DNA of 64,000 bases, from the NCBI RefSeq assembly GCF_000377565.1, contig NZ_KB898355.1:1-64000 (forward strand), read 5' to 3'. The translations under genes and the position numbers were made by a program. Below the pieces are notes generated by a model. It was not told the origin of the DNA and did no database searches. It saw nothing but the letters and a program-made list of their open reading frames with translations. Below, in pieces: positions 4,330 through 23,172 of the stretch (positions are counted from its first letter, which is position 1; every line of letters begins with the position of its first letter). Origin of the DNA: Rhizobium sp. 2MFCol3.1. Its GTDB lineage: Bacteria; Pseudomonadota; Alphaproteobacteria; Rhizobiales; Rhizobiaceae.

Positions 4330-4332
4330 CGA

Positions 4333-6108: not shown

Positions 6109-6146
6109 AAGAATACCTTGAAGATTTTTCAGATAACGGGAAAAGA

Positions 6147-7684: not shown

Positions 7685-8614
7685 ATGAAAAAGCTTATCT
7701 TGGGCGCAACGATGATGCTCGCCTTGTCGACGGCAGCGCACGCCGAAACCGTCGGCGTATCGATCGCCAAATTCGACGACAACTTTTTGACGGTTCTGCG
7801 CAACGGCATGAGCGACTACGCCAAAACGCTCAATGGCGTCACGCTGCAAGTTGAAGACGCGCAAAACGACGTTTCGAAGCAGCAGAGCCAGATCCAGAAC
7901 TTCATCGCTTCGAAGGTTGATGCGATCGTCGTCAATCCCGTCGATACCGATGCGACGGCCGCCATGTCGAAGCTTGCCGCCGATGCTGGCATCCCGCTCG
8001 TCTACGTGAACCGCCAGCCAGTTAACGTTGACACGCTGCCGGACAAGCAGGCATTCGTCGCGTCGAACGAGCAGGAATCCGGCACGCTGCAGACCAAGGA
8101 AATCTGCCGCATTCTCGGTGGCAAAGGCAAGGCCGTGGTTATCATGGGCGAGCTCTCCAACCAGGCCGCTCGCATGCGTACTCAGGACATTCACGACGTC
8201 ATCAAGACTGACGAGTGCAAGGGCATTGAAATCGTCGAAGAGCAGACCGCCAACTGGGATCGAACCCAGGGTTCCGACCTGATGACCAACTGGCTGTCAA
8301 GCGGTGTCGAATTCGATGCTGTCATCTCCAACAACGACGAAATGGCGATCGGCGCCATCCAGGCGCTGAAGGCAGCTGGCAAGGACATGAAGAAGGTTGT
8401 TGTCGGCGGCATCGATGCTACGCAGGACGCTCTGGCCTCCATGCAGGCGGGTGATCTCGACGTGACGGTATTCCAGGACGCTGCCGGTCAGGGCAAAGGC
8501 TCGATCGACGCCGCGCTGAAGCTTGCCAAGGGTGAAAAGGTCGACAAGAAGGTTTACATTCCCTTCCAGCTCGTCACGCCTGAAAACGTCAAGGACTTCG
8601 CTTCCAAGAACTGA
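7685..8614 (+). CDS. sugar ABC transporter substrate-binding protein, MocB/IbpA-like
   Basis: A 309-residue periplasmic binding protein of the RbsB type. The signal peptide is [20 protein letters not shown] with cleavage before [20 protein letters not shown]. The mature part has the two-lobed sugar-binding fold, with [17 protein letters not shown] and [17 protein letters not shown] segments typical of inositol and rhizopine binders. It is the first gene of an importer with the ATPase (8683) and permease (10263), and it precedes MocA- and MocDEF-like genes. That context favours myo-inositol or an O-methyl-inosamine (rhizopine) as ligand. A GC-rich stem-loop follows at 8625-8651, a common device for keeping the binding-protein message abundant. 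Confidence 0.82.
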
Positions 8615-8624
8615 TGCTGTTGCC

Positions 8625-8651
8625 TGTGTGCGGGGCATCCCCCCGCACACA
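8625..8651 (+). terminator. intercistronic stem-loop after the binding-protein gene
   Basis: TGTGTGCGGGG (8625-8635) pairs perfectly with CCCCGCACACA (8641-8651) around a 5-base loop. It lies between the binding-protein stop and the ATPase ribosome site. It likely acts as a partial terminator or 3' stabiliser, giving more binding protein than membrane components. Confidence 0.65.
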
Positions 8652-8682
8652 TCGACCGCAGTGGGATCAGGGAGGATTTGAT

Positions 8683-10224
8683 ATGGTGGTTAGTCCATCC
8701 ACGATGGCGGCTGTGCGCGCCAGCGGAGCAGTACCGAACGCCGAATTTCTTTTGAGTGCTGAAGGTGTCCGCAAGGAATTTCCGGGCGTCGTGGCGCTCG
8801 ATGACGTGCAGTTTCGCCTGCGGCGCGGCACGGTTCATGCCTTGATGGGCGAAAATGGCGCGGGCAAGTCGACCTTGATGAAGATCCTGGCCGGCATCTA
8901 TACGCCGGACAAGGGCCAGGTCTGTCTGAAGGGCATCGAGATCCAGTTGCGCTCGCCGCTTGATGCGCTGGAGAACGGCATCGCCATGATCCATCAGGAG
9001 CTCAACCTGATGCCCTACATGACGGTGGCCGAAAACATCTGGATCCGCCGCGAACCAAAGAACCGCTTCGGATTCGTCGACCACGGCGTCATGCGCCAGA
9101 TGACCGAAGATCTGTTGAGCCGATTGAATATCGCGATCGATCCCGAGATCCAGATCCGTGAGCTCTCCGTCGCCAGCCGCCAGATGGTCGAGATCGCCAA
9201 GGCGGTTTCCTACAAATCCGACGTGCTCATCATGGACGAGCCGACGTCGGCGCTCACCGAGCGCGAGGTCGCCCACCTGTTCCGCATCATCCGTGACCTG
9301 AAGGCGCAGGGGATCGGTATCGTCTACATTACGCATAAGATGAACGAGTTGTTCGAAATCGCCGACGAGTTCTCTGTGTTCCGAGATGGCAAATACATTG
9401 GCACCCACGCATCGACGGACGTGACGCGCGACGACATCATCCGCATGATGGTCGGCCGCGAGATCACCCAGATGTTCCCCAAGGAAGAGGTTCCGATCGG
9501 CGACGTCGTGCTCTCCGTCAAGGATCTGAGCGACGGCCGGTTCTTCCGTGACGTCTCCTTCGAGGTGCGCGCCGGCGAGATCCTCGGCGTGGCCGGCCTG
9601 GTCGGCTCCGGCCGATCCAATGTCGCAGAGACGATCTTCGGCGTGACGCCGGCCAAGACCGGCACGATCGAGCTCTTCGGCAAAAAGGTGGACATTACCT
9701 CGCCGACGGTGGCGATCAAGCACCGCATGGCGTTCCTGACCGAAGACCGCAAGGATACGGGCTGTCTTCTCGTTCTCAACATTCTGGAGAACATGCAGAT
9801 CGCGGTCCTTCAGGACAAGTTCGTCAAGGGCGGCTTCGTCCAGGAGAGCAAGATCGAGGAAGCCTGCGAGACGATGGCGCGCCAGCTGCGCGTAAAGACG
9901 CCCAATCTCTTCGAGCGCATTGAGAACCTGTCCGGCGGCAACCAGCAGAAGGCCCTGATCGGCCGCTGGATGCTCACCAACCCGAAGATCCTCATTCTCG
10001 ATGAGCCGACCCGCGGTATCGACGTGGGCGCCAAGGCGGAGATCCACCGCCTAGTCACCGAGATGGCCCGCAACGGCGTGGCCGTGATCATGATCTCGTC
10101 GGAGATGCCCGAAGTGCTGGGCATGAGCGACCGCATCATGGTGATGCATGAGGGACGGGTGACCGGTTTTCTCAATCGAGACGAAGCAACGCAGATCAAG
10201 GTGATGGAGCTCGCCGCGCAATAG
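8683..10224 (+). CDS. sugar ABC transporter ATP-binding protein (RbsA/XylG type, two ATPase domains)
   Basis: A 513-residue cytoplasmic ATPase with two nucleotide-binding domains. The first has a Walker A motif GENGAGKST and Walker [13 protein letters not shown]. The second has a degenerate Walker A, as is usual in this family, with signature [14 protein letters not shown] and Walker [14 protein letters not shown]. The start at 8683 is set by GGAGGA at 8671-8676. An in-frame ATG at 8614 overlaps the binding-protein stop and would read through the stem-loop, so it is rejected. It powers import by the permease at 10263 of the ligand bound by the 7685 protein. Confidence 0.92.
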
Positions 10225-10262
10225 CCGCGCGCGCGATCTTCGATTATCTAAGGGAGGATTCC

Positions 10263-11288
10263 ATGACAAACAATACAGCAGAGGCCGCCGGCCCGCTTTT
10301 GAAGAGCCCCAGGCGCCGTCGCGTACCGCCGGAGCTGAGCATCTTCCTCGTGCTCATCGGCATCGCGCTTGTTTATGAGGTTCTGGGCTGGATCTTCGTT
10401 GGTCAGAGCTTCCTGTTCAATTCGCAACGCCTGACAATCATGATCCTGCAGGTCTCCGTCATCGGCATCATCGCAGTCGGCGTCACGCAGGTCATCATTA
10501 CTGGGGGCATCGACCTGTCCTCAGGCTCTGTCGTCGGCATGACAGCAATGATCGCTGCGAGTTTCGCGCAGGCCTCGACATGGTCGCGGGCTCTGTATCC
10601 AAGCCTCACGGATTTACCCTTCTTCATCCCGATCGGCGTCGGCCTGCTCATCGGATTGGCCGCCGGCTACATCAACGGCCAGCTTATCGCCAAGACCAAA
10701 ATCCCGCCGTTCATCGCCACGCTCGGCATGATGGTCTCGGCGCGTGGCATCTCCAAGTGGTACACAAAGGGCCAGCCGGTTTCGGGCCTCACGGACCAGT
10801 TCAATTTCATTGGCACTGGGATATGGCCCGTCGTAGTCTTCCTCGTTGTTGCACTGATCTTTCACATTGCACTTCGCTATACCCGGTACGGCAAGTTCAC
10901 CTATGCGATTGGTGCGAACGTTCAGGCCGCGCGAGTGTCGGGTATCAACATCGAAGCCCATCTGATCAAAGTCTATGCAATCGCTGGCTTGCTGGCGGGC
11001 CTCGCCGGCGTGGTCACCGCTGCTCGAGCCCAAACAGCGCAGGCAGGCATGGGCGTGATGTACGAACTCGACGCGATTGCGGCCACTGTTATTGGTGGCA
11101 CCTCGCTGACCGGCGGTGTCGGCCGCATTACCGGCACTGTCATCGGCACCATCATCCTCGGCGTCATGACTTCTGGATTTACCTTCCTCAGGGTGGATGC
11201 CTATTACCAGGAAATCGTGAAAGGCCTCATCATCGTCGCTGCTGTTGTCATTGACGTCTATCGGCAAAAGAAGCGGGCGAAACATTGA
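10263..11288 (+). CDS. sugar ABC transporter permease (RbsC family)
   Basis: A 341-residue inner-membrane permease with about ten hydrophobic segments. The family signatures are ITGGIDLSSGSVVGMTAM and the C-terminal GGTSLTGGVGRITGTVIG loop that contacts the ATPase. GGGAGG stands at proper spacing before the ATG. It forms a homodimeric channel with the ATPase at 8683. The operon ends at the stem-loop at 11347-11373. Confidence 0.92.
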   Translation: MTNNTAEAAGPLLKSPRRRRVPPELSIFLVLIGIALVYEVLGWIFVGQSFLFNSQRLTIMILQVSVIGIIAVGVTQVIITGGIDLSSGSVVGMTAMIAASFAQASTWSRALYPSLTDLPFFIPIGVGLLIGLAAGYINGQLIAKTKIPPFIATLGMMVSARGISKWYTKGQPVSGLTDQFNFIGTGIWPVVVFLVVALIFHIALRYTRYGKFTYAIGANVQAARVSGINIEAHLIKVYAIAGLLAGLAGVVTAARAQTAQAGMGVMYELDAIAATVIGGTSLTGGVGRITGTVIGTIILGVMTSGFTFLRVDAYYQEIVKGLIIVAAVVIDVYRQKKRAKH

Positions 11289-11346
11289 GCGAGAAAGTGC
11301 TTGCGCGGACAAGCCATTGAATAACCGAGCGTAGCCCAAGGCGCTG

Positions 11347-11373
11347 GTCGTGCGGGGGCATTCCCCGCACGAC
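11347..11373 (+). terminator. terminator-like stem-loop after the importer operon
   Basis: GTCGTGCGGGG (11347-11357) pairs perfectly with CCCCGCACGAC (11363-11373) around a 5-base loop, then CGTATTTC. The stem core (GTGCGGGG/CCCCGCAC) is the same as in the hairpin at 8625-8651. Confidence 0.65.
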
Positions 11374-11477
11374 GTATTTCAAGCAGCTGAAATGCGTTCG
11401 AACAGGAACTGGCGGTCGCGCCTCGTCGTATGCCGCGGAAGGTCGGTCTTGTGCACTGAAGCCCTTAGGAAACCGTC

Positions 11478-11774
11478 ATGAAACACCGTCTTTCAGCAAG
11501 CGAACCGAAAGATCTCCAGGAACTTAAGAACATGATCGCTGCGCGGGCTTGCGAGTTTCCGGAACAATCGGAGCGCGTTGCGCGCTTCGCATTGGAAAAG
11601 CCTGCTCTCATTGCCTTTGGGACGGCTCAATCGATTTCTTCGGCATGTTCCGTGGCGCCCTCCACAGTGTTTCGGACGGCCAACGCCCTCGGTTTCACAA
11701 ATTTCAGCGAGTTTCGGCGCTTCTTCAGGCAGCATGTATTGGCCAGTTCGGCGGCGCGCGCTGGTTCTTCCTGA
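11478..11774 (+). CDS. RpiR/MurR-type helix-turn-helix protein lacking its SIS domain
   Basis: 98 residues matching only the N-terminal DNA-binding domain of RpiR/MurR regulators (about residues 10-85; SISSACSVAPSTVFRTANALGFTNFSEFRRFFRQ). Full-length family members have about 280 residues with a C-terminal sugar-phosphate-binding SIS domain. Here a TGA follows the HTH directly, and the next 110 bases to the MocA-like gene do not encode SIS sequence in any frame. It is therefore a truncated remnant or a free-standing DNA-binding protein. AGGAAA precedes the ATG at workable spacing. A hairpin (GCGGCG/CGCCGC) lies at 11790-11806. Confidence 0.6.
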   Translation: MKHRLSASEPKDLQELKNMIAARACEFPEQSERVARFALEKPALIAFGTAQSISSACSVAPSTVFRTANALGFTNFSEFRRFFRQHVLASSAARAGSS

Positions 11775-11884
11775 GCGATTTAGCCATATGCGGCGTCTCG
11801 CGCCGCCCCATCGCATGGACGCGGACAGCCTTTGGGATCGCGATCCGATTACCAAAATTCTCAAACACAACACACGGAGCGCAA

Positions 11885-13000
11885 ATGAAATCGTTGGGCG
11901 TCGGCTTGATCGGCACGGGCTATATGGGCAAGTGCCACGCGCTTGCATGGAATGCGGTCAAGACCGTCTTCGGCGATGTCGAGCGTCCGCGCCTTGTGCA
12001 TCTGGCCGAGGCGAACAGGGATCTTGCCGATGCGCGCGCCTCGGAGTTCGGCTTTGAAAAGGCGACCGCGGACTGGCGTCAGCTGATCGCCGACCCCGAT
12101 GTCCATGTCGTCTCCGTCACCACGCCGAACCAGTTTCATCCCGAGATGGCGATTGCGGCGCTCGAAGCGGGCAAGCACGTCTGGTGCGAAAAGCCGATGG
12201 CGCCTGCCTTTGCGGATGCTGAGCGCATGCTGGATGCCGCAAGGCGCGCCGGCAAGGTTGCCGTGCTCGGCTACAACTATATCCAGAACCCGATCATTCG
12301 CCACATCAAGGCGCTGATCGGCGAAGGCGCCATCGGCCAGGTCAATCACATCCGCGTCGAGATGGACGAGGACTTCATGGCCGATCCGAACGCGCTCTTC
12401 TATTGGAAGAGCGAATTGTCGGCCGGCTACGGCGCGCTCGACGATTTCGCCGTCCATCCTTTGTCTTTGCTCTGGTGCCTCTTCGGCCATGTCGAGGCTG
12501 TCGTCACTGACATGGCCAAGCCCTACGCCGATCGCCCAGTGAAGGACGGTGGACGGCGTTCGGTCGAGAATCACGACGGGGCCAATGTGTTGATGCGTCT
12601 TGGCGGCGGCATTTCCGCCGTATTGATGGCCAACCGTGCCGCCTGGGGTCGAAAGGGTCGCATAGCCTTGCAGATATTCGGGTCGAAAGGGGCGATCACC
12701 TTCGACCAGGAGCGCATGAACGAATTCGAGCTCTATCAGGCCGATGGCCGCGGCAGCGAGCAGGGTTTCCGCAAAATCCTGGCCGCACCCGCCCACCATC
12801 CCTATGACCGCTTCATTCCCGCGCCCGGCCACGGCCTTGGCTTCAACGATCTGAAGATCATCGAATGCCGCGAACTCATTCGTGCGATTTCCGGTGAGCC
12901 GTCGGTGATCGTCACATTCGAAGACGGTCTTAGGATAGAAAAGTCTGTTCACGCCATGGCAGAGTCGTTCCACCAGCGCCGCTGGATCGAGATCGCCTGA
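11885..13000 (+). CDS. Gfo/Idh/MocA-family NAD(P)-dependent dehydrogenase (MocA-like)
   Basis: The 371-residue product has a Rossmann motif GLIGTGYMGKCHA (about residues 7-19) and the Gfo/Idh/MocA signature CEKPM at 101-105, followed by the alpha/beta substrate domain. A longer open frame runs upstream from 11549, but it overlaps the RpiR-like gene in another frame. The start at 11885 begins at the Rossmann fold as family members do. In rhizopine catabolism MocA oxidises the inositol/inosamine ring. Lying between the importer and the MocDEF-like genes, it probably acts on the imported cyclitol or its demethylated product. The exact substrate is inferred. Confidence 0.85.
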   Translation: MKSLGVGLIGTGYMGKCHALAWNAVKTVFGDVERPRLVHLAEANRDLADARASEFGFEKATADWRQLIADPDVHVVSVTTPNQFHPEMAIAALEAGKHVWCEKPMAPAFADAERMLDAARRAGKVAVLGYNYIQNPIIRHIKALIGEGAIGQVNHIRVEMDEDFMADPNALFYWKSELSAGYGALDDFAVHPLSLLWCLFGHVEAVVTDMAKPYADRPVKDGGRRSVENHDGANVLMRLGGGISAVLMANRAAWGRKGRIALQIFGSKGAITFDQERMNEFELYQADGRGSEQGFRKILAAPAHHPYDRFIPAPGHGLGFNDLKIIECRELIRAISGEPSVIVTFEDGLRIEKSVHAMAESFHQRRWIEIA

Positions 13001-13029
13001 GTGGAGGCTCTTGGGTGATGGGCCCCGAG

Positions 13030-14058
13030 CTAGATGTTCTCCGGAATATGAATGTCGAAGGGCAGAAAAACCTGGTCGGGAACGGCAGCGTCACGATCGC
13101 CGATCGCGGCGGTCATAAGACGCATGACCGCCGAGCACATCGCAGGAAGTGGCGTGCCAATCGCCATGGCAACCGTGCCATCGGCAAGTCCAGCCTTGCT
13201 GTCGGGCGTCAACTCATTGACAACGAGCACTAACTTTCCGCTGAAACCTTCTTCCCGTACTGCTTCAATAGCGCCCTCCATGCCGCCACCGCACGCGTAG
13301 AGGCCGACCAGGTCGGGATGCCGATGCAATAGATCAACTGTTGCCTCATGAGTGATATCTGCTGCGTCGAGATTGACGAGCGTGTCTAGCACCTCGAATT
13401 CGGGCGCGTTTTCGCGCATATAGGAACGGAAGCCAACCTCCCGCAACTCGTGCCCGTGAAACCGATGACTGCCGACGAACAGCGCAACCTTTCCCGCTTG
13501 CGCCGCCGTCTTCGCGACCGCCCAGGCTGCCGTCCGCCCGACTTTGCGGTTATCAACGCCGATGTAACCATCACGCACGCCGGCGGCAAAATCGGATAAA
13601 AGGGCGAAGACCGGAATTCCCTTGTCTTTCAGTTCCTCGACAACTGTGGAAACAGCCGGATAGTCGGGGCCAACGACCGCGACTGCTTGGTTTCGAGCCG
13701 CCAGCGCTTTCAACTTCTCGGTAATGGCCGCAGGAGTGCTGGCTTGAACGAAGTCCACTTCGGCCTGAATGCGTGCGGTCGTCACAGATCGCGCGGCAAC
13801 TTCGATCTCCTTCGCGAAGCTTTGATAAAAGGGTTGCATCGGCTTTTGCAAAAGGAAGCCCAGCCGGTGTCGGGGCAGATCTTCGAAGACTCTTTTCCGG
13901 ATCAATCCTACGGCATGATACCCGATTTCCTGGGCGGCATCATAAACCCGTCTTGCGGTCTCCTCGCGGACAGCGTGACGACCATTCAATACGCGGTCGA
14001 CCGTTGCGACACTGACGCCGGAAACCCGGGCTAGATCTGCGATTGTTGGGCGGCTCAT
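13030..14058 (-). CDS. LacI-family transcriptional regulator
   Basis: The start at 14058, with CAGGAG just upstream, gives 342 residues. An open frame reaching 14127 would add 23 residues before the HTH and is rejected. HTH at residues 3-50 (IADLARVSGVSVATVDRVLN), then a sugar-binding effector domain. It is clearly paralogous to the regulator at 19824: both contain a GKVALF-GS segment, a GHELRE-GFRS segment and a CGGGMEGAI-like or AGGGMEGAI segment. It is divergent from the oxygenase gene at 14204 over a 145-base shared control region, so it most likely regulates mocDEF-like transcription in response to a cyclitol. Confidence 0.88.
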   Translation of the reverse strand: MSRPTIADLARVSGVSVATVDRVLNGRHAVREETARRVYDAAQEIGYHAVGLIRKRVFEDLPRHRLGFLLQKPMQPFYQSFAKEIEVAARSVTTARIQAEVDFVQASTPAAITEKLKALAARNQAVAVVGPDYPAVSTVVEELKDKGIPVFALLSDFAAGVRDGYIGVDNRKVGRTAAWAVAKTAAQAGKVALFVGSHRFHGHELREVGFRSYMRENAPEFEVLDTLVNLDAADITHEATVDLLHRHPDLVGLYACGGGMEGAIEAVREEGFSGKLVLVVNELTPDSKAGLADGTVAMAIGTPLPAMCSAVMRLMTAAIGDRDAAVPDQVFLPFDIHIPENI

Positions 14059-14134
14059 CGCTTGCTCCTGAGGTAATTTGTCATTCCTTCGCCCAGCTTT
14101 ATGATATGTTTTGATAGATAATAGCAAGGCTGCA

Positions 14135-14163
14135 TTGAGCGGTTGGATAAGTCAATCTATCTT
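14135..14163 (+). promoter_or_regulatory. candidate promoter for the oxygenase operon
   Basis: TTGAGC (14135-14140) and TATCTT (14158-14163) are spaced by 17 bases and end 41 bases before the start at 14204. GATAGAT (14113-14119) and ATCTATC (14155-14161), an inverted pair, flank or overlap it and could be operator halves for the divergent LacI regulator. Confidence 0.4.
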
Positions 14164-14203
14164 AAGCTTCACCGGCGGTTGGAGGCCGGCTTGGGAGGCG
14201 GAA

Positions 14204-15292
14204 ATGACGACGAACGTGCCAAAGCGCGATTACAGCCTGCTTGGGCAAAGTGCCCGTACGGCAGTTGAAACCGGACTCGCTGCCGCGCAGTGGTATCACA
14301 CTGATGTGCCGCGCAAGGATATGAAAGCGCTAATGCAGCGTTCCGACATGCCGGCAATTCGCGACACGGTCATCTGGCTGGGCAGCATGGTCATTCTTGG
14401 CGGGCTCGGGGCTTACTTCTGGGGATCCTGGCTCGCACTACCGTTCTTCCTCGCCTACGGCGTACTCTACGGCTCGGCATCCGACAGCCGCTGGCACGAA
14501 TGCGGCCACGGTACCGCCTTCAAAACGCGCTGGATGAACGACGTGGTCTACGAGATCGCCTGCTTCATGATCATGCGTAACCCGGTAACATGGCGCTGGA
14601 GTCATACTCGCCATCACACCGATACGGTTATCGTCGGTCGCGATCCCGAGATTGCCGTCATGAGGCCACCGGACCTTCTTCGGCTCGTTCTCAATGCCTT
14701 CGGCCTGCTCGACGCCTATCACGCGATGATCGACATGCTGCGCAACGCAGTCGGCATCATCAGTGCCGAGGAAAAGACCTTCGTACCTGAATCCGAGCAA
14801 CCCCGCGCAATCCGCATCGCCCGCATCTGGCTCGTCATTTACCTTGCGACGATCGCGACCGCGCTGATCATGGGCTCCTGGTTGCCGCTGGTTCTGATGG
14901 GCCTTCCAAGGCTCTATGGCGCCTGGCACCACGTCATGACAGGGCTCCTGCAGCATGGCGGCCTGGCCGACAATGTCATCGACCACCGGCTGAACAGTCG
15001 TTCGGTCTACATGAACCCGATCAGCCGTTTCATTTACTGGAATATGAACTACCACGTCGAGCACCATATGTTTCCGATGGTGCCCTATCACGCGCTTCCC
15101 CGCCTCCACGCAATGATCAAGCATGATCTGCCCGCGCCAAACCCGTCGATGTGGTCTGGCTATCGCGAAATGATCCCGGCGTTCCTGCGTCAGTTGCGCA
15201 ACGAGGACTATTTCCTGAAGCGCGAGCTGCCGGCCAGCGCGCGGCCCTATCGCGAGGAGCTTCACGCCGAGCTTGCCCCGGCCGCACAGTAA
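14204..15292 (+). CDS. mocD: membrane di-iron oxygenase/desaturase, MocD-like
   Basis: A 362-residue integral-membrane protein of the fatty-acid desaturase/alkane hydroxylase superfamily. The histidine boxes that bind the two irons are HECGH (98-102), HTRHH (134-138) and HVEHH (284-288), with QH at 250-251, between hydrophobic segments at about 55-90 and 205-235. The start at 14204 is set by GGGAGGCGG. It is followed at once by a Rieske ferredoxin and an FAD reductase, the same trio and order as mocDEF of rhizopine-catabolising rhizobia, where MocD is proposed to remove the O-methyl group of 3-O-methyl-scyllo-inosamine. The downstream folate genes support a demethylase that releases formaldehyde. 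Confidence 0.78.
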   Translation: MTTNVPKRDYSLLGQSARTAVETGLAAAQWYHTDVPRKDMKALMQRSDMPAIRDTVIWLGSMVILGGLGAYFWGSWLALPFFLAYGVLYGSASDSRWHECGHGTAFKTRWMNDVVYEIACFMIMRNPVTWRWSHTRHHTDTVIVGRDPEIAVMRPPDLLRLVLNAFGLLDAYHAMIDMLRNAVGIISAEEKTFVPESEQPRAIRIARIWLVIYLATIATALIMGSWLPLVLMGLPRLYGAWHHVMTGLLQHGGLADNVIDHRLNSRSVYMNPISRFIYWNMNYHVEHHMFPMVPYHALPRLHAMIKHDLPAPNPSMWSGYREMIPAFLRQLRNEDYFLKRELPASARPYREELHAELAPAAQ

Positions 15293-15316
15293 TCAGTCTA
15301 CATGGGAGGAAAAATC

Positions 15317-15631
15317 ATGAGTGAGACCTGGATCGAAGTCTGCGCCAAGGACGATATCGACGAGGAGGACGTGCTTCGCTTCGACCACGCCGGCAGAACC
15401 TTTGCAGTGTATCGGAGCCCTGACGACGAGTTCTTTGCAACCGACGGCCTATGTACCCATGAAAAAATTCATCTCGCCGACGGTCTCGTGATGGACGAGA
15501 TCATCGAATGTCCGAAACATAATGGCCGCTTCAACTACAAGACCGGCGAAGCGAAGGGTGCGCCCGTCTGCGTCAATCTGAAGACCTATCCGGTCAAGGT
15601 CGAAGGCGATTCCGTCTTCATTTCGATCTGA
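15317..15631 (+). CDS. mocE: Rieske [2Fe-2S] ferredoxin, MocE-like
   Basis: 104 residues with the Rieske ligands C46-H48 (CTHEK) and C65-H68 (CPKHNGRF). It is a soluble electron carrier between the FAD reductase at 15641 and the di-iron oxygenase at 14204. The start at 15317 is chosen because GGGAGGAAAA lies just before it; an ATG at 15302 overlaps that ribosome site. The gene begins 24 bases after the oxygenase stop and ends 9 bases before the reductase start, so the three form one unit. The length is typical of bacterial dioxygenase-type Rieske ferredoxins. Confidence 0.85.
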   Translation: MSETWIEVCAKDDIDEEDVLRFDHAGRTFAVYRSPDDEFFATDGLCTHEKIHLADGLVMDEIIECPKHNGRFNYKTGEAKGAPVCVNLKTYPVKVEGDSVFISI

Positions 15632-15640
15632 GGGGCGGTC

Positions 15641-16867
15641 ATGTCCCATTTCGTGATTGTTGGCGCCGGAGAATGCGGCGCTCGAGCAGCATGGACGCTG
15701 CGGGAAAAGGGTTTCGACGGCGACATCACGCTGATCGGTAACGAGCCGCATGCTCCTTACGAGCGCCCGCCACTGTCCAAAGCAGCACTCGGGGATGGCC
15801 AGCATCCAAAGTATGTCGCCGACGAGCAACGCTACGCCGAGGAGCGCATTGCATTGCTCATCGGCGTCGCCGTCGAAGGGCTCGATGTCGGGGCGAGGCA
15901 ACTGACATTGTCCGATGCGCGAGTGCTTACCTATGACAAGCTGCTTATTGCAACTGGTGCCCGGCCGAAGCTTTTTCCGGGGGCGGCTGTGACGAGCCCG
16001 CATATCCGTTTGCTGCGGACCCATGGCGATGCAGTCGCACTGCGCGCCGCCATGCAGCCGGGCAAGCACATTGCGATTATTGGCGGTGGCTTCATCGGGC
16101 TCGAGCTGGCCGCGACAGCCCGCAAGCTCGGAGCGACGGTCACCGTGATCGAAGGGCTTGAACGCGTGTTGAAGCGCGGCGTGCCCGAAGATATCGCCGC
16201 CGCCGTGACGGCACGCCACAGTGCTGAAGGCGTGGACGTGCGTTGCGGTGTCACGATCGAGGCGCTCACCGAGGATGCGGGCAAGGCGCTTGTCCGTCTC
16301 AAAAGTGGCGACGTCATTCAGGCGGACCTCGTCCTGGTCGGGATCGGTGCGGTACCTAACACAGCGCTGGCGGAGCAAGCTGGACTTGCGATCGACAACG
16401 GCATTGCCGTCGATGAAGAACTGCGGACGTCCGCGCCCGATGTGTATGCTGCCGGCGATTGCTGCTCGTTCCCGCTCGATCTTTATGGCGGCAAGCGAGT
16501 GCGTCTCGAATCCTGGCGCAATGCGCAGGAGCAGGGCGCGATGGCGGCGGTCAACATGATGGGAGGCGGCGAGACAATCTCCGCCGTGCCCTGGTTCTGG
16601 TCGGACCAGTACGACATGACGCTTCAGATCGCCGGCCTCGCGGACGGCGCGGTCCGACACCTGCGCCGGGACATTGGGGAAGGGGCCTTCATTCTCTTTC
16701 ACCTCGATCAGGCCGGAAGGCTAATCGCCGCAAGCGGAATCGGCCCAGGAAACGCGGTGGCGCGCGACATCCGCCTTGCAGAGATGCTGATCGCTGCCCG
16801 CTCGCATCCCGATCCGCAAGCGCTCGTCAACGCCGGCGTCAAACTCAAATCCCTGCTTTCCGCGTGA
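15641..16867 (+). CDS. mocF: NAD(P)H:ferredoxin reductase (FAD), MocF-like
   Basis: 408 residues of the dioxygenase ferredoxin-reductase family: an N-terminal FAD site (FVIVGAGECGARAAWTLREKG, about residues 3-23), a central NAD(P)H site (IAIIGGGFIGLELAATARKLG, about 146-166) and the FAD-contacting VYAAGDCC motif near 270. It reduces the Rieske ferredoxin at 15317 with NAD(P)H. The position directly after the ferredoxin gene and the fit to the MocDEF trio make the assignment strong. The one change of note is E in the first glycine-rich loop (GAGECG). Confidence 0.84.
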   Translation: MSHFVIVGAGECGARAAWTLREKGFDGDITLIGNEPHAPYERPPLSKAALGDGQHPKYVADEQRYAEERIALLIGVAVEGLDVGARQLTLSDARVLTYDKLLIATGARPKLFPGAAVTSPHIRLLRTHGDAVALRAAMQPGKHIAIIGGGFIGLELAATARKLGATVTVIEGLERVLKRGVPEDIAAAVTARHSAEGVDVRCGVTIEALTEDAGKALVRLKSGDVIQADLVLVGIGAVPNTALAEQAGLAIDNGIAVDEELRTSAPDVYAAGDCCSFPLDLYGGKRVRLESWRNAQEQGAMAAVNMMGGGETISAVPWFWSDQYDMTLQIAGLADGAVRHLRRDIGEGAFILFHLDQAGRLIAASGIGPGNAVARDIRLAEMLIAARSHPDPQALVNAGVKLKSLLSA

Positions 16868-16898
16868 GCGGCAATCGATTCTGGAAAAGGACAATCCG

Positions 16899-17717
16899 AT
16901 GAAGAAACACGGCCGGCCGACCGTAGCCGATCTCCTGTCGCTAAAGGGCAAACGTCAGCTCACCATGCTGCGCGTCACGACGCTAGATGAAGCCGAGGCC
17001 GCCCAGCAGGCCTCTGTGGATATCGTCTCTGTACCGCCAGCTCTTCTTGGCCCGGCATTTCGCGAGGCCGCACCATCGCCTTTTGCGATCCCCGGTCTCG
17101 AGTACGGCGACTACGTGTCGGCCGAGGAGTATATGCGTGAGGCATTCATCGCCCTGAAGGCCGGTGGCGATGCGGTCTATTGTGCGGCGAGCCCACGGAT
17201 CATTCGCCGCATGCGCGAGGAAGGCATTCCTGTCTGCGGTCACGTTGGGCTCATCCCGTCAAAAGCGACGTGGACCGGCGGGTTCCGGGCAGTGGGAAAA
17301 ACCGCGCTGAGCGCGATCGAAATCTGGCGACAGACGAAAGCGCTTGAAGATGCCGGTGCCTTCGCTGTCGAAATTGAGGTCGTTCCGGGTGATGTCGCCG
17401 CGATCATCAGCAACAACACGTCGATGCTCATGATCTCGATGGGGGCGGGCAGCGGCTGCGATGCGCAGTATCTATTCGCTGACGACGTGCTCGGTGCCAA
17501 CCGCGATCACTATCCCCGCCATGCCAAGGTCTATCGCGACTTCGCGTCCGAGTATGATCGGCTGCAGCGCGAGCGGGTCGCTGCCTTCAGCGAGTTCGTG
17601 GCTGACGTTCAGTCCAGCGCATACCCGGACAAACGTCACCTCGTGTCGATCGACACGGACGAGCTGAAAGCCTTTCTCGCCCATGTTGAGAAGAATCTGG
17701 TCAAGACGGAAGACTGA
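16899..17717 (+). CDS. ketopantoate hydroxymethyltransferase (PanB)-like TIM-barrel protein
   Basis: 272 residues of the PanB/PEP-mutase superfamily. GIPVCGHVGLIPSKATWTGG matches the conserved GIPVMGHIGLTPQ region of PanB, and GAFAVEIEVVP matches its glutamate loop. The usual first Mg-binding region (DxIxVGDSLG in PanB) reads VDIVSVPPALL here, so that aspartate is missing, and the ADMPF region is also not recognisable. It is thus divergent and may not make ketopantoate. PanB uses methylene-tetrahydrofolate, and the gene sits between the oxygenase trio and purU-folD, so a role in one-carbon transfer from the demethylation is plausible but unproven. Confidence 0.65.
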   Translation: MKKHGRPTVADLLSLKGKRQLTMLRVTTLDEAEAAQQASVDIVSVPPALLGPAFREAAPSPFAIPGLEYGDYVSAEEYMREAFIALKAGGDAVYCAASPRIIRRMREEGIPVCGHVGLIPSKATWTGGFRAVGKTALSAIEIWRQTKALEDAGAFAVEIEVVPGDVAAIISNNTSMLMISMGAGSGCDAQYLFADDVLGANRDHYPRHAKVYRDFASEYDRLQRERVAAFSEFVADVQSSAYPDKRHLVSIDTDELKAFLAHVEKNLVKTED

Positions 17718-17765
17718 GCGCCGTCAAATCGCTCTCTATTACACTCCAGAGACATGGGAATAAAA

Positions 17766-18650
17766 ATGACGACTTACGTATTGACGGTAGCCTGCAAATC
17801 GACACGCGGCATCGTGGCGGCGATTTCGACCTATCTGGCCGACAAGGGCTGCAACATCATCGATAGCTCGCAGTTCGACGATCTCTCCACCGGCATGTTC
17901 TTCACCCGCGTCAGCTTCATCTCCGAAGAAGGTGCGACACTGGCGGCCATTCGCGAAAGCTTCCAGCCGATCGCCGAGAAGTTCGAGATGACCGCGGAAA
18001 TCCACGACGGCGACCAGCGCATGAAAGTGCTATTGATGGTCTCGCGCTTCGGTCACTGCCTCAACGATCTGCTCTACCGCTGGAAGATCGGTGCGCTGCC
18101 GATCGATATCGTCGGCGTGGTGTCCAATCACTTCGACTATCAGAAGGTCGTCGTCAATCACGACATTCCCTTCCACCACATCAAGGTGACGAAGGAAAAC
18201 AAGCCCGAGGCCGAAGCGCAGATCATGCAGATCGTCGAATCGACTGGCACGGAACTCGTCGTGCTCGCCCGCTACATGCAGGTGCTCTCCGATGCCATGT
18301 GCAAGAAGATGTCCGGCCGCATCATCAACATCCACCACTCCTTCCTGCCGTCTTTCAAGGGCGCCAACCCCTACAAGCAGGCCTATGAGCGTGGCGTGAA
18401 GCTGATCGGCGCCACCGCGCATTACGTTACCGCCGATCTCGACGAAGGTCCGATCATCGAGCAGGACACGGCACGCATCACCCATGCACAGTCGGCGGAC
18501 GATTACGTCTCGATCGGCCGCGATGTCGAGAGCCAGGTTCTCGCCCGCGCCATCCACGCCCACATCCACCACCGCGTGTTCCTGAACGGCAACCGCACCG
18601 TAGTCTTCCCGGCAAGCCCGGGCAGCTACGCCTCCGAGCGCATGGGCTAA
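17766..18650 (+). CDS. purU: formyltetrahydrofolate deformylase (PurU)
   Basis: 294 residues: an N-terminal ACT-like domain (about 1-80; VLTVACKSTRGIVAAISTYLADKGCNIIDSSQFDD) and a C-terminal formyltransferase-fold hydrolase domain with the catalytic NIHHSFLPSFKG and DEGPIIEQD motifs. It splits 10-formyl-THF to formate and THF. An in-frame ATG at 17754 adds four residues; neither start has a strong ribosome site, and 17766 matches the family N-terminus. The downstream folD starts 3 bases after this stop. Together they turn the one-carbon unit released by O-demethylation into formate and recycle THF. Confidence 0.9.
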   Translation: MTTYVLTVACKSTRGIVAAISTYLADKGCNIIDSSQFDDLSTGMFFTRVSFISEEGATLAAIRESFQPIAEKFEMTAEIHDGDQRMKVLLMVSRFGHCLNDLLYRWKIGALPIDIVGVVSNHFDYQKVVVNHDIPFHHIKVTKENKPEAEAQIMQIVESTGTELVVLARYMQVLSDAMCKKMSGRIINIHHSFLPSFKGANPYKQAYERGVKLIGATAHYVTADLDEGPIIEQDTARITHAQSADDYVSIGRDVESQVLARAIHAHIHHRVFLNGNRTVVFPASPGSYASERMG

Positions 18651-18653
18651 ACG

Positions 18654-19556
18654 ATGGCGACAGTAATCGACGGTAAAAAGGTTGCAGCTTCGGTCATCGA
18701 CACGGTGAAGGCGGCAACATCGGCACTGGAAAAGCAGAGCGGCGTTCAGGCCGGTCTCGCGGTCATCATTGTCGGCGACGATCCGGCAAGCCACGCCTAT
18801 GTAGGCTCCAAGAGCAAGATGGCCAAGGAATGCGGCTTCAAGTCCGTGCAGCACACGCTGCCGCTCGAGACGACGCAGCAAGAACTGGCCGCGCTCGTCG
18901 CTTCCCTCAACGCCGATGACACGATCCACGGCATCCTCGTGCAGCTGCCGCTGCCCAAGCACCTGAATTCCGAGCCGATCATCCAGTCGATCCTGCCCGA
19001 GAAGGATGTCGATGGTCTTCACGTCGTCAACGCCGGCAAGCTGGCGGTCGGCGATCTCGAGACCGGCCTCGTCTCGTGCACGCCCGCCGGCGCCATGGTC
19101 TTCGTGCGCCGCACCCACGGCGAGGATCTCTCCGGCCTCAACGCCGTCGTGGTCGGTCGTTCCAATCTGTTCGGCAAGCCGATGGCGCAGCTGCTGCTCA
19201 ACGCCAACGCCACGGTGACCATCGCGCATTCGAGAACCAAGGATCTGCCTGCAGTTTGCCGCAACGCCGATATCCTGGTTGCCGCCGTCGGCCGTCCCGA
19301 GATGGTCAAGGCCGATTGGGTCAAGCGCGGCGCGACCGTCATCGATGTCGGCATCAACCGCATCGCAGCGCCCGAAAAGGGTGAGGGCAAGACGCGTCTC
19401 GTCGGCGATGTCGCCTTCGCCGAGGCGGCCGAAGTCGCGGATGTCATCACCCCGGTTCCCGGTGGCGTCGGTCCGATGACCATTGCCATGCTGATGGCCA
19501 ACACCGTGATCGCTGCGCACCGCGCCGCCGGCCAGGTCGTGCCCCGTTTCTGTTAG
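18654..19556 (+). CDS. folD: bifunctional methylene-THF dehydrogenase / methenyl-THF cyclohydrolase (FolD)
   Basis: 300 residues with the FolD hallmarks: [13 protein letters not shown] (catalytic tyrosine and lysine, near 50), [21 protein letters not shown], the NADP-binding [17 protein letters not shown] and the C-terminal [16 protein letters not shown]. It oxidises methylene-THF and hydrolyses methenyl-THF to 10-formyl-THF, the substrate of PurU encoded just upstream. Bacteria keep a housekeeping folD, so this clustered copy is probably dedicated to formaldehyde from the MocDEF-like demethylase. Codon third positions are very GC-rich. Confidence 0.92.
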
Positions 19557-19777
19557 CGCGGATTGCGGGAGAGCTGCCGTGGCCAATCTCCGTCTGTGAT
19601 GATTAGGCGCTCGTCGCGAGCGCAGGGCAAAGTAATCTGGCGTTGAGCGCGGCCGACGTGAATTGCCCAAGCACCAAATCTCATCGCGCCGGCTCCAGAA
19701 CACTGTCTGACTGTTCGCGCTCATTCTCGCGAGGCCTGAAGTCACGCCTGTCTGCGGGAGCCGAGTTGACGTAATCG

Positions 19778-19788
19778 CCTCAAGACCT
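19778..19788 (+). promoter_or_regulatory. repeat copy 1, upstream of the LacI gene at 19824
   Basis: CCTCAAGACCT lies 36 bases before the LacI start and recurs exactly at 20869-20879, upstream of the next gene. The sequences GTATTTCCGCG and GTATTCCCGCG follow both copies downstream. The pair flanks the regulator gene and probably marks its operators. Confidence 0.5.
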
Positions 19789-19823
19789 CAAAAAAGTATT
19801 TCCGCGTTGACGAGGTGAACATC

Positions 19824-20852
19824 ATGAGGCGAGTGAGAATTGAAGATATCGCTGAAGAGGCTGGCCTCAGCAAGGCGACGGTTGACCGTGTTGTGCACAA
19901 GCGTGGTCATGTCCGTGCCGAGACCGCCAGCAAAGTTGCCGAGGCAGCACACAGGCTGGGTTACTACGGCGCCAATCTCATTGATCAGCAGCTGGCGATC
20001 AAGCTCACCCGTGTGAGACTGGGGTTTGTCCTGATCAAGGAGAAGCAGGAGTTCTACCAGAATTTCAAAAACGAACTCGAAGCAGCTGCGATGGCACGGG
20101 AGGATGTGCGAGCAACGCCGCTCGTCCGTTTCGTATCATCGCAGTCGCCCTCCGACATGGCGGAGGCAATGCTCGCGGTCGGAGAGCACACCGATGCGGT
20201 AGCCTGCACCGCCGTCAATCATCACGCGGTCACGGCAGCCACCGAGACCTTGCGGCAAAGGGGCAAACCTGTTTTCGCACTGCTGAACGACTTCGCCCCG
20301 GGCGCGCGGGAGCACTACATCGGACTGGACAACCTCAAAGCAGGGAAGATTGCCGGGTGGATGATTTCGACGGCGGCCAAGGGTCCCGGGAAGGTAGCCT
20401 TGTTTATGGGCAGCAACCGTTGGGTCGGTCACGAGTTGCGGGAGACAGGATTTCGATCCCAGTTTAGGCAATCCGGGCCAGACTTGGCTCTGCTCGATTC
20501 CGTCATCAACCTCGAAACTCGCCAGCTTACCTACGAGACGACCCTCGCCCTTCTTGAACGCTACCCCGACCTGACGGGCATCTGCGTTGCCGGAGGCGGC
20601 ATGGAGGGGGCGATCGCGGCACTGCGCGAGATGCGTAAGCCCGGCGAGGTCGCGCTCGTCGTAAACGAAATTACGACGGTGAGCCGTGCGGCGCTGTCGG
20701 ACGGCTATGCCACAATGGTCATCAGTACCCCATTGTCCGCTTTGTGCCGCGAGACGATAGAACTGATGGTTCGATCGGTTATAGACGGCCAGACACAACA
20801 GCTCGGTCAACGCTTCCTGGAGCCCCAAATCTATCTACCGCCTTCAGTGTAG
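19824..20852 (+). CDS. LacI-family transcriptional regulator
   Basis: 342 residues from ATG 19824, with GAGGTG 6 bases upstream; a GTG at 19815 inside that ribosome site is rejected. The HTH is at about residues 3-50 (IEDIAEEAGLSKATVDRVVH), followed by a sugar-binding domain. It has the TVDR recognition helix shared with 1892-2920 and 13030-14058, and is closest to the latter by common motifs (GHELRETGFRS, AGGGMEGAI, VVNEIT). The repeat CCTCAAGACCT occurs on both sides of the gene, and a palindrome lies at 20858-20873. This suggests autoregulation and control of the downstream isomerase and IdhA genes. Confidence 0.87.
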   Translation: MRRVRIEDIAEEAGLSKATVDRVVHKRGHVRAETASKVAEAAHRLGYYGANLIDQQLAIKLTRVRLGFVLIKEKQEFYQNFKNELEAAAMAREDVRATPLVRFVSSQSPSDMAEAMLAVGEHTDAVACTAVNHHAVTAATETLRQRGKPVFALLNDFAPGAREHYIGLDNLKAGKIAGWMISTAAKGPGKVALFMGSNRWVGHELRETGFRSQFRQSGPDLALLDSVINLETRQLTYETTLALLERYPDLTGICVAGGGMEGAIAALREMRKPGEVALVVNEITTVSRAALSDGYATMVISTPLSALCRETIELMVRSVIDGQTQQLGQRFLEPQIYLPPSV

Positions 20853-20857
20853 TTCTA

Positions 20858-20879
20858 TGAGGTGAATACCTCAAGACCT
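20858..20879 (+). promoter_or_regulatory. palindromic operator candidate plus repeat copy 2
   Basis: TGAGGTGAATACCTCA at 20858-20873 is a palindrome with 6-base arms. It overlaps CCTCAAGACCT (20869-20879), the second copy of the repeat at 19778-19788. It lies between the LacI gene and the isomerase gene at 21017. Confidence 0.5.
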
Positions 20880-21016
20880 ACGAACATCTACCTCAGCAAA
20901 GACGTATTCCCGCGAGCGGCCATTGTTCTGGCATAGTGAATTTGTCATTTGACAGTCCGTAGCCAATTGGGAGGGCGGTTCGGTTCCGCCCGTATGGATG
21001 GGAGAGGAGACTATCT

Positions 21017-21835
21017 ATGGAATGGGCGCTGAACCAAATGACGACACCTCACCTCAGCTACCAGGATTTCCTGGTGCTGGCCCGATCGCTGAACTGCGTC
21101 GGTGTCGAAGTCCGCAACGATTTGAAGCGGCCGCTTTTCGATGGGCTAGCGCCGACAGAGGCGGGGCGGATCGCCCAAAACGAGGGACTGCGTCTTGTCG
21201 GTCTTTCCCAAGTCTATCCGTTCAACATCTGGTCGCCACCGATCAAGAGTGAAGTGCAGAAACTTATCGCTGTCGCCAAGGCGGCGGGCGCCGAAACCAT
21301 CAGCCTCATACCCCGCAACGAGGGCTTGGATACCAACGAAGTGGAACGCAAGGCCCACCTTGCTGAAGCACTGCGCGAGATTTTGCCGCTCTTGGAGGAC
21401 GCTGACATGACGGCGTTGGTGGAGCCGCTAGGCTTCCTCCGCTCGTCGCTGCGAAGCAAATCCGAGCTCGTGTCGGAGATCAACGCGCTTGTCGCCAGCC
21501 ACAGGTACAAGCTCGTGCACGACACCTTCCATCACGTACTCGCCGACGGTGGCGCCATTTTCCCCGAGAACACCGGGATCGTCCATATCTCCGCCGTGGC
21601 TGATCCATCGCTGCGCGTGGACCAGATGGAGGACGAGCACCGAGTACTCGTGGGCGCCGACGACAGACTGGACAATGTTGGCCAGATCGCGGCACTCCTC
21701 GCCGCCGGCTACAAGGGTCCGATCTCTTACGAGTGCTTCTCGCCTTTGGTTCATGACGTGAAAGATCCCTACCAGGACATCAAGGCGTCGATGGCGTTCA
21801 TTGAGGCCGGAGTTGCCACCAACGCGGCCGCATAA
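21017..21835 (+). CDS. sugar phosphate isomerase/epimerase family TIM barrel, IolI-like
   Basis: 272 residues of the AP-endonuclease-2 / xylose-isomerase-like TIM-barrel family. Likely metal ligands appear in the family order: E in LVEPLGF, H/D/H in LVHDTFHH, H in IVHISAV and E in ISYECFS. This matches the layout of 2-keto-myo-inositol isomerase (IolI) and, more loosely, MocC/IolE. GAGAGGAG precedes the ATG. The idhA gene follows 96 bases downstream, so a role in converting the ketone made by IdhA or the MocA-like enzyme is likely. Dehydratase activity (IolE/MocC) is the alternative. Confidence 0.7.
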   Translation: MEWALNQMTTPHLSYQDFLVLARSLNCVGVEVRNDLKRPLFDGLAPTEAGRIAQNEGLRLVGLSQVYPFNIWSPPIKSEVQKLIAVAKAAGAETISLIPRNEGLDTNEVERKAHLAEALREILPLLEDADMTALVEPLGFLRSSLRSKSELVSEINALVASHRYKLVHDTFHHVLADGGAIFPENTGIVHISAVADPSLRVDQMEDEHRVLVGADDRLDNVGQIAALLAAGYKGPISYECFSPLVHDVKDPYQDIKASMAFIEAGVATNAAA

Positions 21836-21931
21836 ATCCAAATGGGAGCCGGATCGGTTTGCTAGAGCTTGAACCGACTTCGGCGATCCATTCACTCCGA
21901 CCGCGTGCGGTTATTTCCTAGGGAGGTTTTT

Positions 21932-22924
21932 ATGACAGTGAGATTTGGTCTTCTCGGCGCCGGTCGTATCGGCAAGGTTCACGCCAAGGCGGTCAGCGGC
22001 GATGCCAATGCAAGGCTCGTTGCCGTCGCCGACGCCTTTCCGGAGGCCGCCAACGCCATCGCATCCGCCTACGGCTGCGAAGTCCGCACCATCGAGGCGA
22101 TCGAAGCCGCCGGCGACATCGACGCCGTCGTCATCTGCACGCCGACCGACACCCATGCCGACCTGATCGAGCGCTTCGCCCGCGCAGGCAAGGCGATCTT
22201 CTGCGAGAAGCCCGTCGATCTCTCCGTCGAGCGCGTCAAGGCCTGCATCAAGGTCGTCGACGAGACCAAGGGCAAGCTGATGGTCGGCTTCAACCGCCGC
22301 TTCGACCCGCACTTCATGGCCGTGCGCCATGCCATCGACGATGGCCGCATCGGCGACGTCGAGATGGTGACGATCACCTCGCGCGATCCTGGCGCCCCGC
22401 CTGTCGACTATATCAAGCGCTCGGGCGGCATCTTCCGCGACATGACGATCCACGATTTCGACATGGCCCGCTTCCTGCTCGGCGAAGAGCCGGTCGCCGT
22501 CACAGCAACCGCCGCCGTCCTCGTCGACAAGGCGATCGGCGAAGCCGGCGATTACGACAGCGTTTCCGTCATCCTGCAGACCAAGTCGGGCAAGCAGGCG
22601 ATCATCTCCAACTCCCGCCGCGCCACCTATGGCTACGACCAGCGCATCGAGGTGCACGGCTCCAAGGGCATGGTCTCGGCCGAAAACCAGCGCGCCGTCT
22701 CGATCGAAGTCGCCAACGGCGAAGGCTACACCCGCCCGCCGCTGCACGACTTCTTCATGACCCGCTACACTGAAGCCTATGCCAACGAGATCGCAAGCTT
22801 CATCGCCGCCATCGAAAAGGGCGCCAAGATCTCCCCCTCGGGCGCCGATGGCCTTGCCGCCCTCGTGCTCGCCGACGCGGCCGTCCAGTCCGTCAAGGAA
22901 GGCAAGCTGATCAAGATCTGCTGA
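21932..22924 (+). CDS. idhA: inositol 2-dehydrogenase (Gfo/Idh/MocA family)
   Basis: 330 residues, the length of rhizobial IdhA. Rossmann motif GLLGAGRIGKVHAKAV (about 6-21), CEKPVDL near 95 and the GGIFRDMTIHDFDMARFLLG active-site segment (catalytic D/H) match inositol 2-dehydrogenase well. It oxidises myo-inositol to 2-keto-myo-inositol with NAD+, and IdhA is also needed for rhizopine breakdown in rhizobia. GGGAGG at 21921-21926 sets the start; the open frame from 21869 lacks such a site. Codon third positions are markedly more GC-rich than in neighbouring regulator and oxygenase genes. A clear terminator follows at 22957. Confidence 0.88.
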   Translation: MTVRFGLLGAGRIGKVHAKAVSGDANARLVAVADAFPEAANAIASAYGCEVRTIEAIEAAGDIDAVVICTPTDTHADLIERFARAGKAIFCEKPVDLSVERVKACIKVVDETKGKLMVGFNRRFDPHFMAVRHAIDDGRIGDVEMVTITSRDPGAPPVDYIKRSGGIFRDMTIHDFDMARFLLGEEPVAVTATAAVLVDKAIGEAGDYDSVSVILQTKSGKQAIISNSRRATYGYDQRIEVHGSKGMVSAENQRAVSIEVANGEGYTRPPLHDFFMTRYTEAYANEIASFIAAIEKGAKISPSGADGLAALVLADAAVQSVKEGKLIKIC

Positions 22925-23050: not shown

Positions 23051-23172
23051 CAAAGTCGCGGTGAACCTTTGAATTCCCTTCGTCCCGAGGAGTTTGCCGC
23101 AATGCATCTGCTCAAGTCGTGATGATCAGTCGTGGCGTGCGCCACGCTTTTCCCTGGGAGGGGGTAAACTGG

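Follow-up and report, generated by a model that had tools for sequence, protein, structure and literature searches.

A putative O-methyl-inositol catabolic island in Rhizobium sp. 2MFCol3.1 and its PanB-like candidate for one-carbon transfer to tetrahydrofolate

Described systems and the proposed pathway

The closest described relatives of the locus considered here are the mocDEF rhizopine genes of S. meliloti L5-30 and R. leguminosarum, which were reportedly proposed by Bahar in 1998 to act on 3-O-methyl-scyllo-inosamine. The locus itself is an island at positions 7685-22924 of a 64,000 nt stretch of DNA from Rhizobium sp. 2MFCol3.1 (contig NZ_KB898355.1, positions 1-64,000), referred to below as the window. 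The same trio has been found in the island, in the same order and with a match to the MocE model. Unlike the rhizopine genes, the island bears LacI-type regulators in place of MocR and inositol dehydrogenases in place of the Gfo proteins, and its operon continues into a gene for a PanB-like protein (hereafter PanBL), purU and folD. In the available passages of the moc papers the genes are given only as mocCABRDEF or as its four transcription units (PMC6668481; PMC10107442; PMC5789663).

A further parallel is found in nicotine catabolism, where according to the accessible part of one article FolD and PurU of the MABO pathway handle methylene-tetrahydrofolate (methylene-THF) after N-demethylation (PMC3891541). 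The nicotine-linked panB of the same passages was set aside as a parallel, as it belongs to a different setting (PMC3891541). The island would resemble the MABO pathway in its use of FolD and PurU on methylene-THF that stems from demethylation. The two differ, however, in how this intermediate arises: an oxidase makes it from an N-methyl group in the MABO pathway, whereas the predicted target of the island's di-iron oxygenase is an O-methyl group, and the PanB-like protein stands between. A job comparable to the one proposed for PanBL, the transfer of formaldehyde to a one-carbon carrier, is carried out by the formaldehyde-activating enzyme, which is tetrahydromethanopterin-dependent and thus uses another cofactor, and which is not known to be related in protein to PanBL. 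A tetrahydrofolate (THF)-using enzyme of this kind has been treated as only possible in the passages available from a study in which E. coli, relying on the uncatalysed condensation of formaldehyde with THF alone, would have a doubling time of more than three weeks; the uncatalysed reaction was judged too slow to be relevant to growth, PanB was considered there as a possible promiscuous catalyst, deletion of panB together with ltaE had no effect, and an unknown enzyme was not excluded (PMC7073904). A PanB relative dedicated to this step would have a natural place after the demethylating oxygenase and before FolD/PurU. How bacteria load formaldehyde-level carbon onto THF is an open point, and PanBL is a named and easily tested candidate for it. 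In the open-licence literature of PubMed Central, no paper was recognised in which a PanB-like protein is tied to mocDEF or to an O-demethylase.

On balance, and with moderate confidence, the island is read here as a catabolic pathway for an O-methyl-inositol, probably pinitol, in which PanBL is predicted to pass the hydroxymethyl group from the oxygenase to THF. The binding protein and its ATP-binding cassette (ABC) transporter would import the O-methyl cyclitol. Electrons from reduced nicotinamide adenine dinucleotide (NADH) would then pass through MocF and MocE to MocD, which would hydroxylate the O-methyl group to a hemiacetal, R-O-CH2OH. PanBL may break the HOCH2-O bond, or may capture released formaldehyde, to give methylene-THF, a step that would represent the hydroxymethyl half-reaction of PanB without its oxo-acid half. 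By the established chemistry of their families, FolD would convert methylene-THF to 10-formyl-THF, from which PurU would release formate. Either IdhA or the scyllo-inositol-type dehydrogenase would then oxidise the liberated inositol, the IolI-like protein would isomerise it, and the product would join the iol pathway. Certainty decreases from the demethylation by the oxygenase, through the movement of carbon to folate by PanBL, to pinitol as the substrate, each of which is a prediction; the gene content of the island and the recurrent association of its genes are observed. Under this reading the rhizopine pathway gains a one-carbon step, and a prediction follows of how rhizobia use pinitol. 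PanBL, which was given no role in an initial annotation of the window, is the most informative gene.

PanBL and its oxygenase partners

PanBL is labelled 3-methyl-2-oxobutanoate hydroxymethyltransferase by several sources and shares a Pfam family with PanB (PF02548), the match beginning only at profile position 71. Its score lies below the cutoff of the PanB equivalog TIGR00222 (101.9 vs 207.55). When 34 PanBL sequences were compared with three true PanBs, among them that of E. coli (1m3u), the equivalents of His136 and Glu181 were found to be retained in all 34, while Lys112 and Glu114 of PanB are gone in every sequence and Asp84 in 33. In addition, PanBL lacks about 20 residues of the N-terminal half around Asp45/Ser46, and the uncertain Asp45 column holds Asp in 4 of the 34. 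Asp45, Asp84, Lys112 and Glu114 (E. coli numbering) are taken by us to be the metal and oxo-acid residues of PanB, with catalytic roles. A tree sets the PanBL rows apart from two true PanBs with a support of 100/100. PanBL is a clade separate from PanB, in which the part that holds the metal and the oxo acid is gone. With this part lost and the His and Glu residues kept, the folate-side hydroxymethyl transfer could remain. An AlphaFold2 model of PanBL, built on a 20-row alignment, is of moderate quality (predicted local distance difference test score 74; 43-74 over five models) and was not used for residue geometry. Its best 28 fold matches are all PanB chains, with template modelling (TM) scores of 0.55-0.64, and its weaker matches include an aldolase and 2-methylisocitrate lyase.

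The database name and the PF02548 match would also agree with PanBL being a second pantothenate-pathway enzyme whose oxygenase neighbours are incidental. This is very improbable, given that a true PanB (350 bits) is encoded elsewhere in the window genome, next to a PanC match, and that PanBL fails TIGR00222, forms its own clade and is enriched beside oxygenases.

In the oxygenase set, three His boxes are present in the MocD-like protein (HECGH 98, HTRHH 134 and HVEHH 284) and a Rieske motif, C-x-H...C-x-x-H, in the MocE-like protein; no solved structure related to MocD was found at E<=0.001. Among close relatives (the best 80 of 543 were fetched), the MocD-Rieske-reductase set stands directly upstream of PanBL in 77, and the association is for this reason not a matter of chance. 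Of the 80 loci, 75 have the LacI gene and 66 the isomerase within 6 kb. PanBL is the constant partner, and adjacency of PurU is a minority trait among close relatives.

A second module in the window genome (6.5 Mb, 44 contigs) offers an internal comparison. This genome holds three PurU and three FolD proteins over cutoff and three PF02548 matches: the window and the second module each account for one PurU, one FolD and one PF02548 match, and the remaining three lie elsewhere, the PF02548 match among them being the true PanB. The second module (L008; contig 1, 228000-247000) comprises an IdhA-like dehydrogenase, a MocE-family ferredoxin (168.8 bits, cutoff 136.15), a flavin adenine dinucleotide (FAD) reductase, PurU, a sterol-desaturase-type oxygenase (PF04116, FA_hydroxylase) that overlaps PanBL by 4 bp, a PanBL 44% identical to that of the window, and FolD. 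It has its own sugar ABC transporter, located upstream on the opposite strand, and its own LacI-type regulators. Between the two modules the oxygenase is exchanged and the one-carbon genes stay. The initial annotation had proposed clustered purU and folD copies dedicated to the island; the presence of one of each per module fits dedicated copies, but the constant partner is PanBL and not these two genes. The third PurU (L009; contig 6, 85768-86598) is 99% identical in protein (tblastn) and 95% identical in DNA to that of the island and adjoins a large protein with a class-III aminotransferase-like C-terminal part. It is a recent duplication or exchange. Since the aminotransferase-like protein is its one identified neighbour, this copy was set aside as evidence on the module, where it supports neither side.

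In a wider survey, 385 Alphaproteobacterial genomes were examined, with PanBL counted from 200 bits upwards, a cut placed in a score gap between 217 and 150. This gave 25 places spread over 21 genomes; the window genome accounts for two. Fifteen of the places have a gene for an FA_desaturase, FA_hydroxylase, Rieske alpha subunit, PhyH or TauD no more than 2 kb away, where 1.00 would be expected from genome-wide counts (nominal P 4e-16, the places not being independent). In the true-PanB control from the same genomes an oxygenase is near 1 of 10 places. Cytochrome P450 was rejected as a partner, none being found within 3 kb of any PanBL place. On the fetched stretches, tblastn matches to MocD, FA_hydroxylase or MocE were obtained in 9 of 22 PanBL loci (L155-L176), and the same queries gave none in 18 control loci (L177-L194); the single FA_hydroxylase near a control place is visible only by its Pfam model and not by tblastn. 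In the PanBL tree, where stars mark well-supported groups and branches, three starred groups each combine FA_desaturase with FA_hydroxylase partners, and one combines Rieske with 2-oxoglutarate partners. On the starred branches the FA_desaturase label must change five times or more, a count that includes changes to rows for which no partner was found. The oxygenase partner changes and the PanBL gene stays.

Some single genomes deserve mention. One of 1.6 Mb (G359; L162, L163, L174) has four PanBL places above 200 bits beside FA_desaturase, FA_hydroxylase or PhyH. PanBL also lies beside the Fe/2-oxoglutarate oxygenase PhyH in G318 (L170), where TauD is present as well, and in G388 (L169); among the rhizobial loci opened, no Fe/2-oxoglutarate partner was seen.

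The 14 plasmid regions inspected were reached through a PanB-like match in nine cases and a MocD match in five. In eight of the former, no more than two genes separate the PanB-like gene from one for a fatty-acid or sterol desaturase; the ninth, found through an Enterococcus panB match, is a true panBCD operon and served only as a true-PanB control. PanBL is present in three of the five MocD-match regions. In Peteryoungia, purU, a transporter, a triose-phosphate isomerase (TIM) barrel protein, LacI, mocDEF, PanBL and iolG stand together, and in Aestuarium PanBL is near iolG and genes annotated as 5-dehydro-2-deoxygluconokinase and trihydroxycyclohexanedione acylhydrolase.

A tentative generalisation, which we hold with less confidence than the reading of the island, is that the PanBL family may be a dedicated THF-dependent hydroxymethyl (formaldehyde) transferase. 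It would take HOCH2 from the hemiacetal straight to methylene-THF with no free formaldehyde, and unrelated oxygenases of the Rieske, Fe/2-oxoglutarate and two membrane di-iron families would have recruited it time and again in Alphaproteobacteria, also for rhizopine catabolism. PanBL is a large family whose database name is that of a vitamin-biosynthesis enzyme; it stands beside oxygenases and folate enzymes, and the site of the vitamin enzyme is lost in it. Alternatively, the methyl carbon could leave as free formaldehyde, with PanBL acting as an aldolase or lyase that splits a fragment, hydroxymethyl or another, off the carbon skeleton of the product. The PanB superfamily does carry out aldol, retro-aldol and lyase chemistry, enzymes of this kind occur among the weaker fold matches, and the great variety of partner oxygenases suggests that substrates may vary too. 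An aldolase or lyase is nonetheless considered unlikely: the loss of the metal and oxo-acid residues in nearly all 34 sequences makes PanB-like aldol chemistry on a 2-oxo acid improbable, PanBL follows mocDEF beside a rhizopine MocR, where the proposed substrates include an O-methyl ether, and one-carbon flux is indicated by FolD and PurU in the loci that have them.

Substrate of the island and relation to rhizopine loci

The gene context points to a methylated inositol, because the island holds IdhA (inositol 2-dehydrogenase 4hkt, 632 bits), a scyllo-inositol-type dehydrogenase and an isomerase, and IolE is encoded elsewhere in the window genome (C5; 368.5 vs a cutoff of 290). The second dehydrogenase had been described as MocA-like in the initial annotation, a label that is not borne out: its nearest named structure is scyllo-inositol dehydrogenase 5ya8 (the top match, 4fb5, is a "probable oxidoreductase"), and its identity to one of the Gfo proteins in the Rhizobium indicum plasmid locus described below (L103) is 29%, over 201 of its 371 residues. 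It also lies below the levoglucosan dehydrogenase model NF052479 (282.7 vs a cutoff of 650). As for the IolI-like isomerase, the general TIM-barrel family PF01261 is matched and no NCBIfam model was found at E<=0.001; the protein is 65% identical to the sugar epimerase of the Aestuarium inositol cluster, and it presumably has the role of IolI as an inositol isomerase. Were the substrate pinitol (3-O-methyl-D-chiro-inositol), demethylation would give D-chiro-inositol and an isomerase would be needed.

Pinitol is a major legume cyclitol. In the passages available from a study of R. mesoamericanum on Mimosa root exudate, homologues of mocDEF were induced 1.53-2.11 fold, a mocB-type transporter 4-4.7 fold and idhA 2.4 fold, and pinitol was the most concentrated compound of the exudate at 145 uM (PMC5789663). 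The authors suggested rhizopine use (PMC5789663); in our view the data favour pinitol. Pinitol has also been reported in clover exudate, in the accessible part of PMC8386446, and the passages available from PMC12462448 mention neither rhizopine nor pinitol.

The relation to rhizopine loci can be assessed through L103, which has a MocR over the NCBI cutoff (NF052281; 739 vs 650), iolE, Gfo dehydrogenases and a binding protein, and in which mocD, mocE and mocF are followed by PanBL, purU and a folD remnant spread over frames. Since L103 carries this tail after mocDEF and together with MocR, we infer that the panB-like, purU and folD genes are an integral part of O-demethylation of the moc type. 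The connection that the initial annotation had put forward between mocDEF and these genes is a real one, recurring in the window genome with another oxygenase and in this plasmid locus with MocR over cutoff.

The likeness to L103 raises the possibility that the island is itself a rhizopine (3-O-methyl-scyllo-inosamine) catabolic locus, which is how a similar locus is interpreted by its authors in the available text of PMC5789663. The mocDEF trio is complete, with TIGR02377 over cutoff for the ferredoxin, and identity to L103 amounts to 75% for the binding protein (309 aa), 78% for MocD, 81% for MocE, 60% for MocF, 73% for PanBL and 85% for PurU. Despite the similar binding protein, comparison of the genes indicates that the island, called rhizopine-like in the initial annotation, is probably not a rhizopine locus, because its regulators are of the LacI and not the MocR type and its dehydrogenases share no more than 29% identity with either Gfo protein of L103 (which of the two is MocA being labelled by position). 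MocR is absent among the island regulators in NCBIfam and Pfam scans that took in some but not every window open reading frame (ORF). Moreover, related modules with a LacI gene have an isomerase next to them in the majority of the 80 close loci, and two named plasmids carry iolG beside such a module. Altogether, a rhizopine function of the island appears improbable. The rhizopine-binding-protein model NF052284 gives 56.7 for the island protein (cutoff 420), and the binding protein of L103 is itself unlisted at E<=1e-30. This model was rejected as a rhizopine marker: two of 200 relatives exceed its cutoff, and their 19.5 kb stretches (L100, L101) have no MocD or PanBL match (E<=1e-10). As the L103 protein is unlisted and the relatives over cutoff have no MocD nearby, NF052284 may name another transporter.

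Several points weigh against the island being a pathway for an O-methyl-inositol with transfer of carbon to folate by PanBL. MocD-type genes of Gemmobacter and Caballeronia have no PanBL match in 21 kb, so that the oxygenase can exist without PanBL, and three of the 80 close loci (L011, L041, L065) have PanBL without an upstream MocD. Sequence of 1 kb or more downstream of PanBL is available for 69 close loci: PurU follows in 9 of these, FolD in 7, FA_hydroxylase in 7 and no recognised gene in 53. In the survey, ten of the 25 PanBL places lack an oxygenase of the listed kinds within 2 kb, two of them sitting within 1 kb of a contig end, and neighbours of the oxygenase-free places include a threonine dehydratase, a short-chain dehydrogenase and a tripartite ATP-independent periplasmic (TRAP) transporter. 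The sampled genomes are not independent, three being of one genus and four places lying in one genome. The true-PanB control consists of 10 of the 16 lower-scoring places in those genomes, and one place counted as a true PanB (G227:C1:961190, 135 bits) is also near an FA_hydroxylase. The literature passages available hold no biochemistry for PanBL or the island MocD. The main text of PMC5789663 lacks the terms formyltetrahydrofolate and hydroxymethyltransferase, and its available passages name no PanB-like or PurU gene. Rhizopines include a form without the methyl group, according to the accessible part of PMC6668481. The choice of substrate is contextual: the island probably acts on pinitol, as judged from its surroundings.

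Gene layout and flanking features

The genes named in the initial annotation are present (Table 1), with MocE-like, PurU, FolD and IdhA proteins over curated cutoffs. The mocD-mocE-mocF-panB-like-purU-folD genes are separated by 24, 9, 31, 48 and 3 bp, the distance of 48 bp being counted from the purU ATG at 17766; a second in-frame ATG is found at 17754.

Table 1. Genes of the island, with window positions (in some scans the ORF starts a few codons upstream of the coordinates listed)
Gene product	Position	Strand	Match
MocB-like periplasmic sugar/cyclitol binding protein	7685-8614	+	PF13407 207.6 bits
Sugar ABC transporter ATPase	8614-10224	+	two PF00005 stretches
Sugar ABC transporter permease	10263-11288	+	PF02653
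Gfo/Idh/MocA dehydrogenase, scyllo-inositol dehydrogenase-like	11885-13000	+	5ya8 327 bits
LacI-type regulator with sugar-binding domain, divergent from mocD-like gene	13030-14127	-	PF00356 and PF13407
MocD-like membrane di-iron oxygenase, predicted O-demethylase	14204-15292	+	PF00487 133.8 bits
MocE-family Rieske ferredoxin	15317-15631	+	TIGR02377 180.6 bits, cutoff 136.15
MocF-like FAD ferredoxin reductase	15641-16867	+	PF07992, PF14759
PanB-like protein (PanBL), predicted hydroxymethyl transfer to THF	16899-17717	+	PF02548 138.1 bits
PurU, formyltetrahydrofolate deformylase	17766-18650	+	TIGR00655 337.1 vs cutoff 285.95
FolD, methylene-THF dehydrogenase/cyclohydrolase	18654-19556	+	NF010785 501.4 vs cutoff 396
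Second LacI-type regulator	19815-20852	+	PF00356 and PF13407
IolI-like TIM-barrel isomerase	21017-21835	+	PF01261 69.9 bits
IdhA, inositol 2-dehydrogenase	21932-22924	+	TIGR04380 421.3 vs cutoff 355

Two GMC oxidoreductases flank the island, at window positions 3019-6896 on the minus strand and 23119-24792 on the plus strand. The left one is grouped with a Gluconate_2-dh3 subunit and a cytochrome c (three matched stretches) and resembles a membrane sugar dehydrogenase. Before the scyllo-inositol-type dehydrogenase gene, a 98-aa ORF (window 11478-11774) looks by eye like the DNA-binding part of an RpiR-type regulator and is perhaps a remnant.

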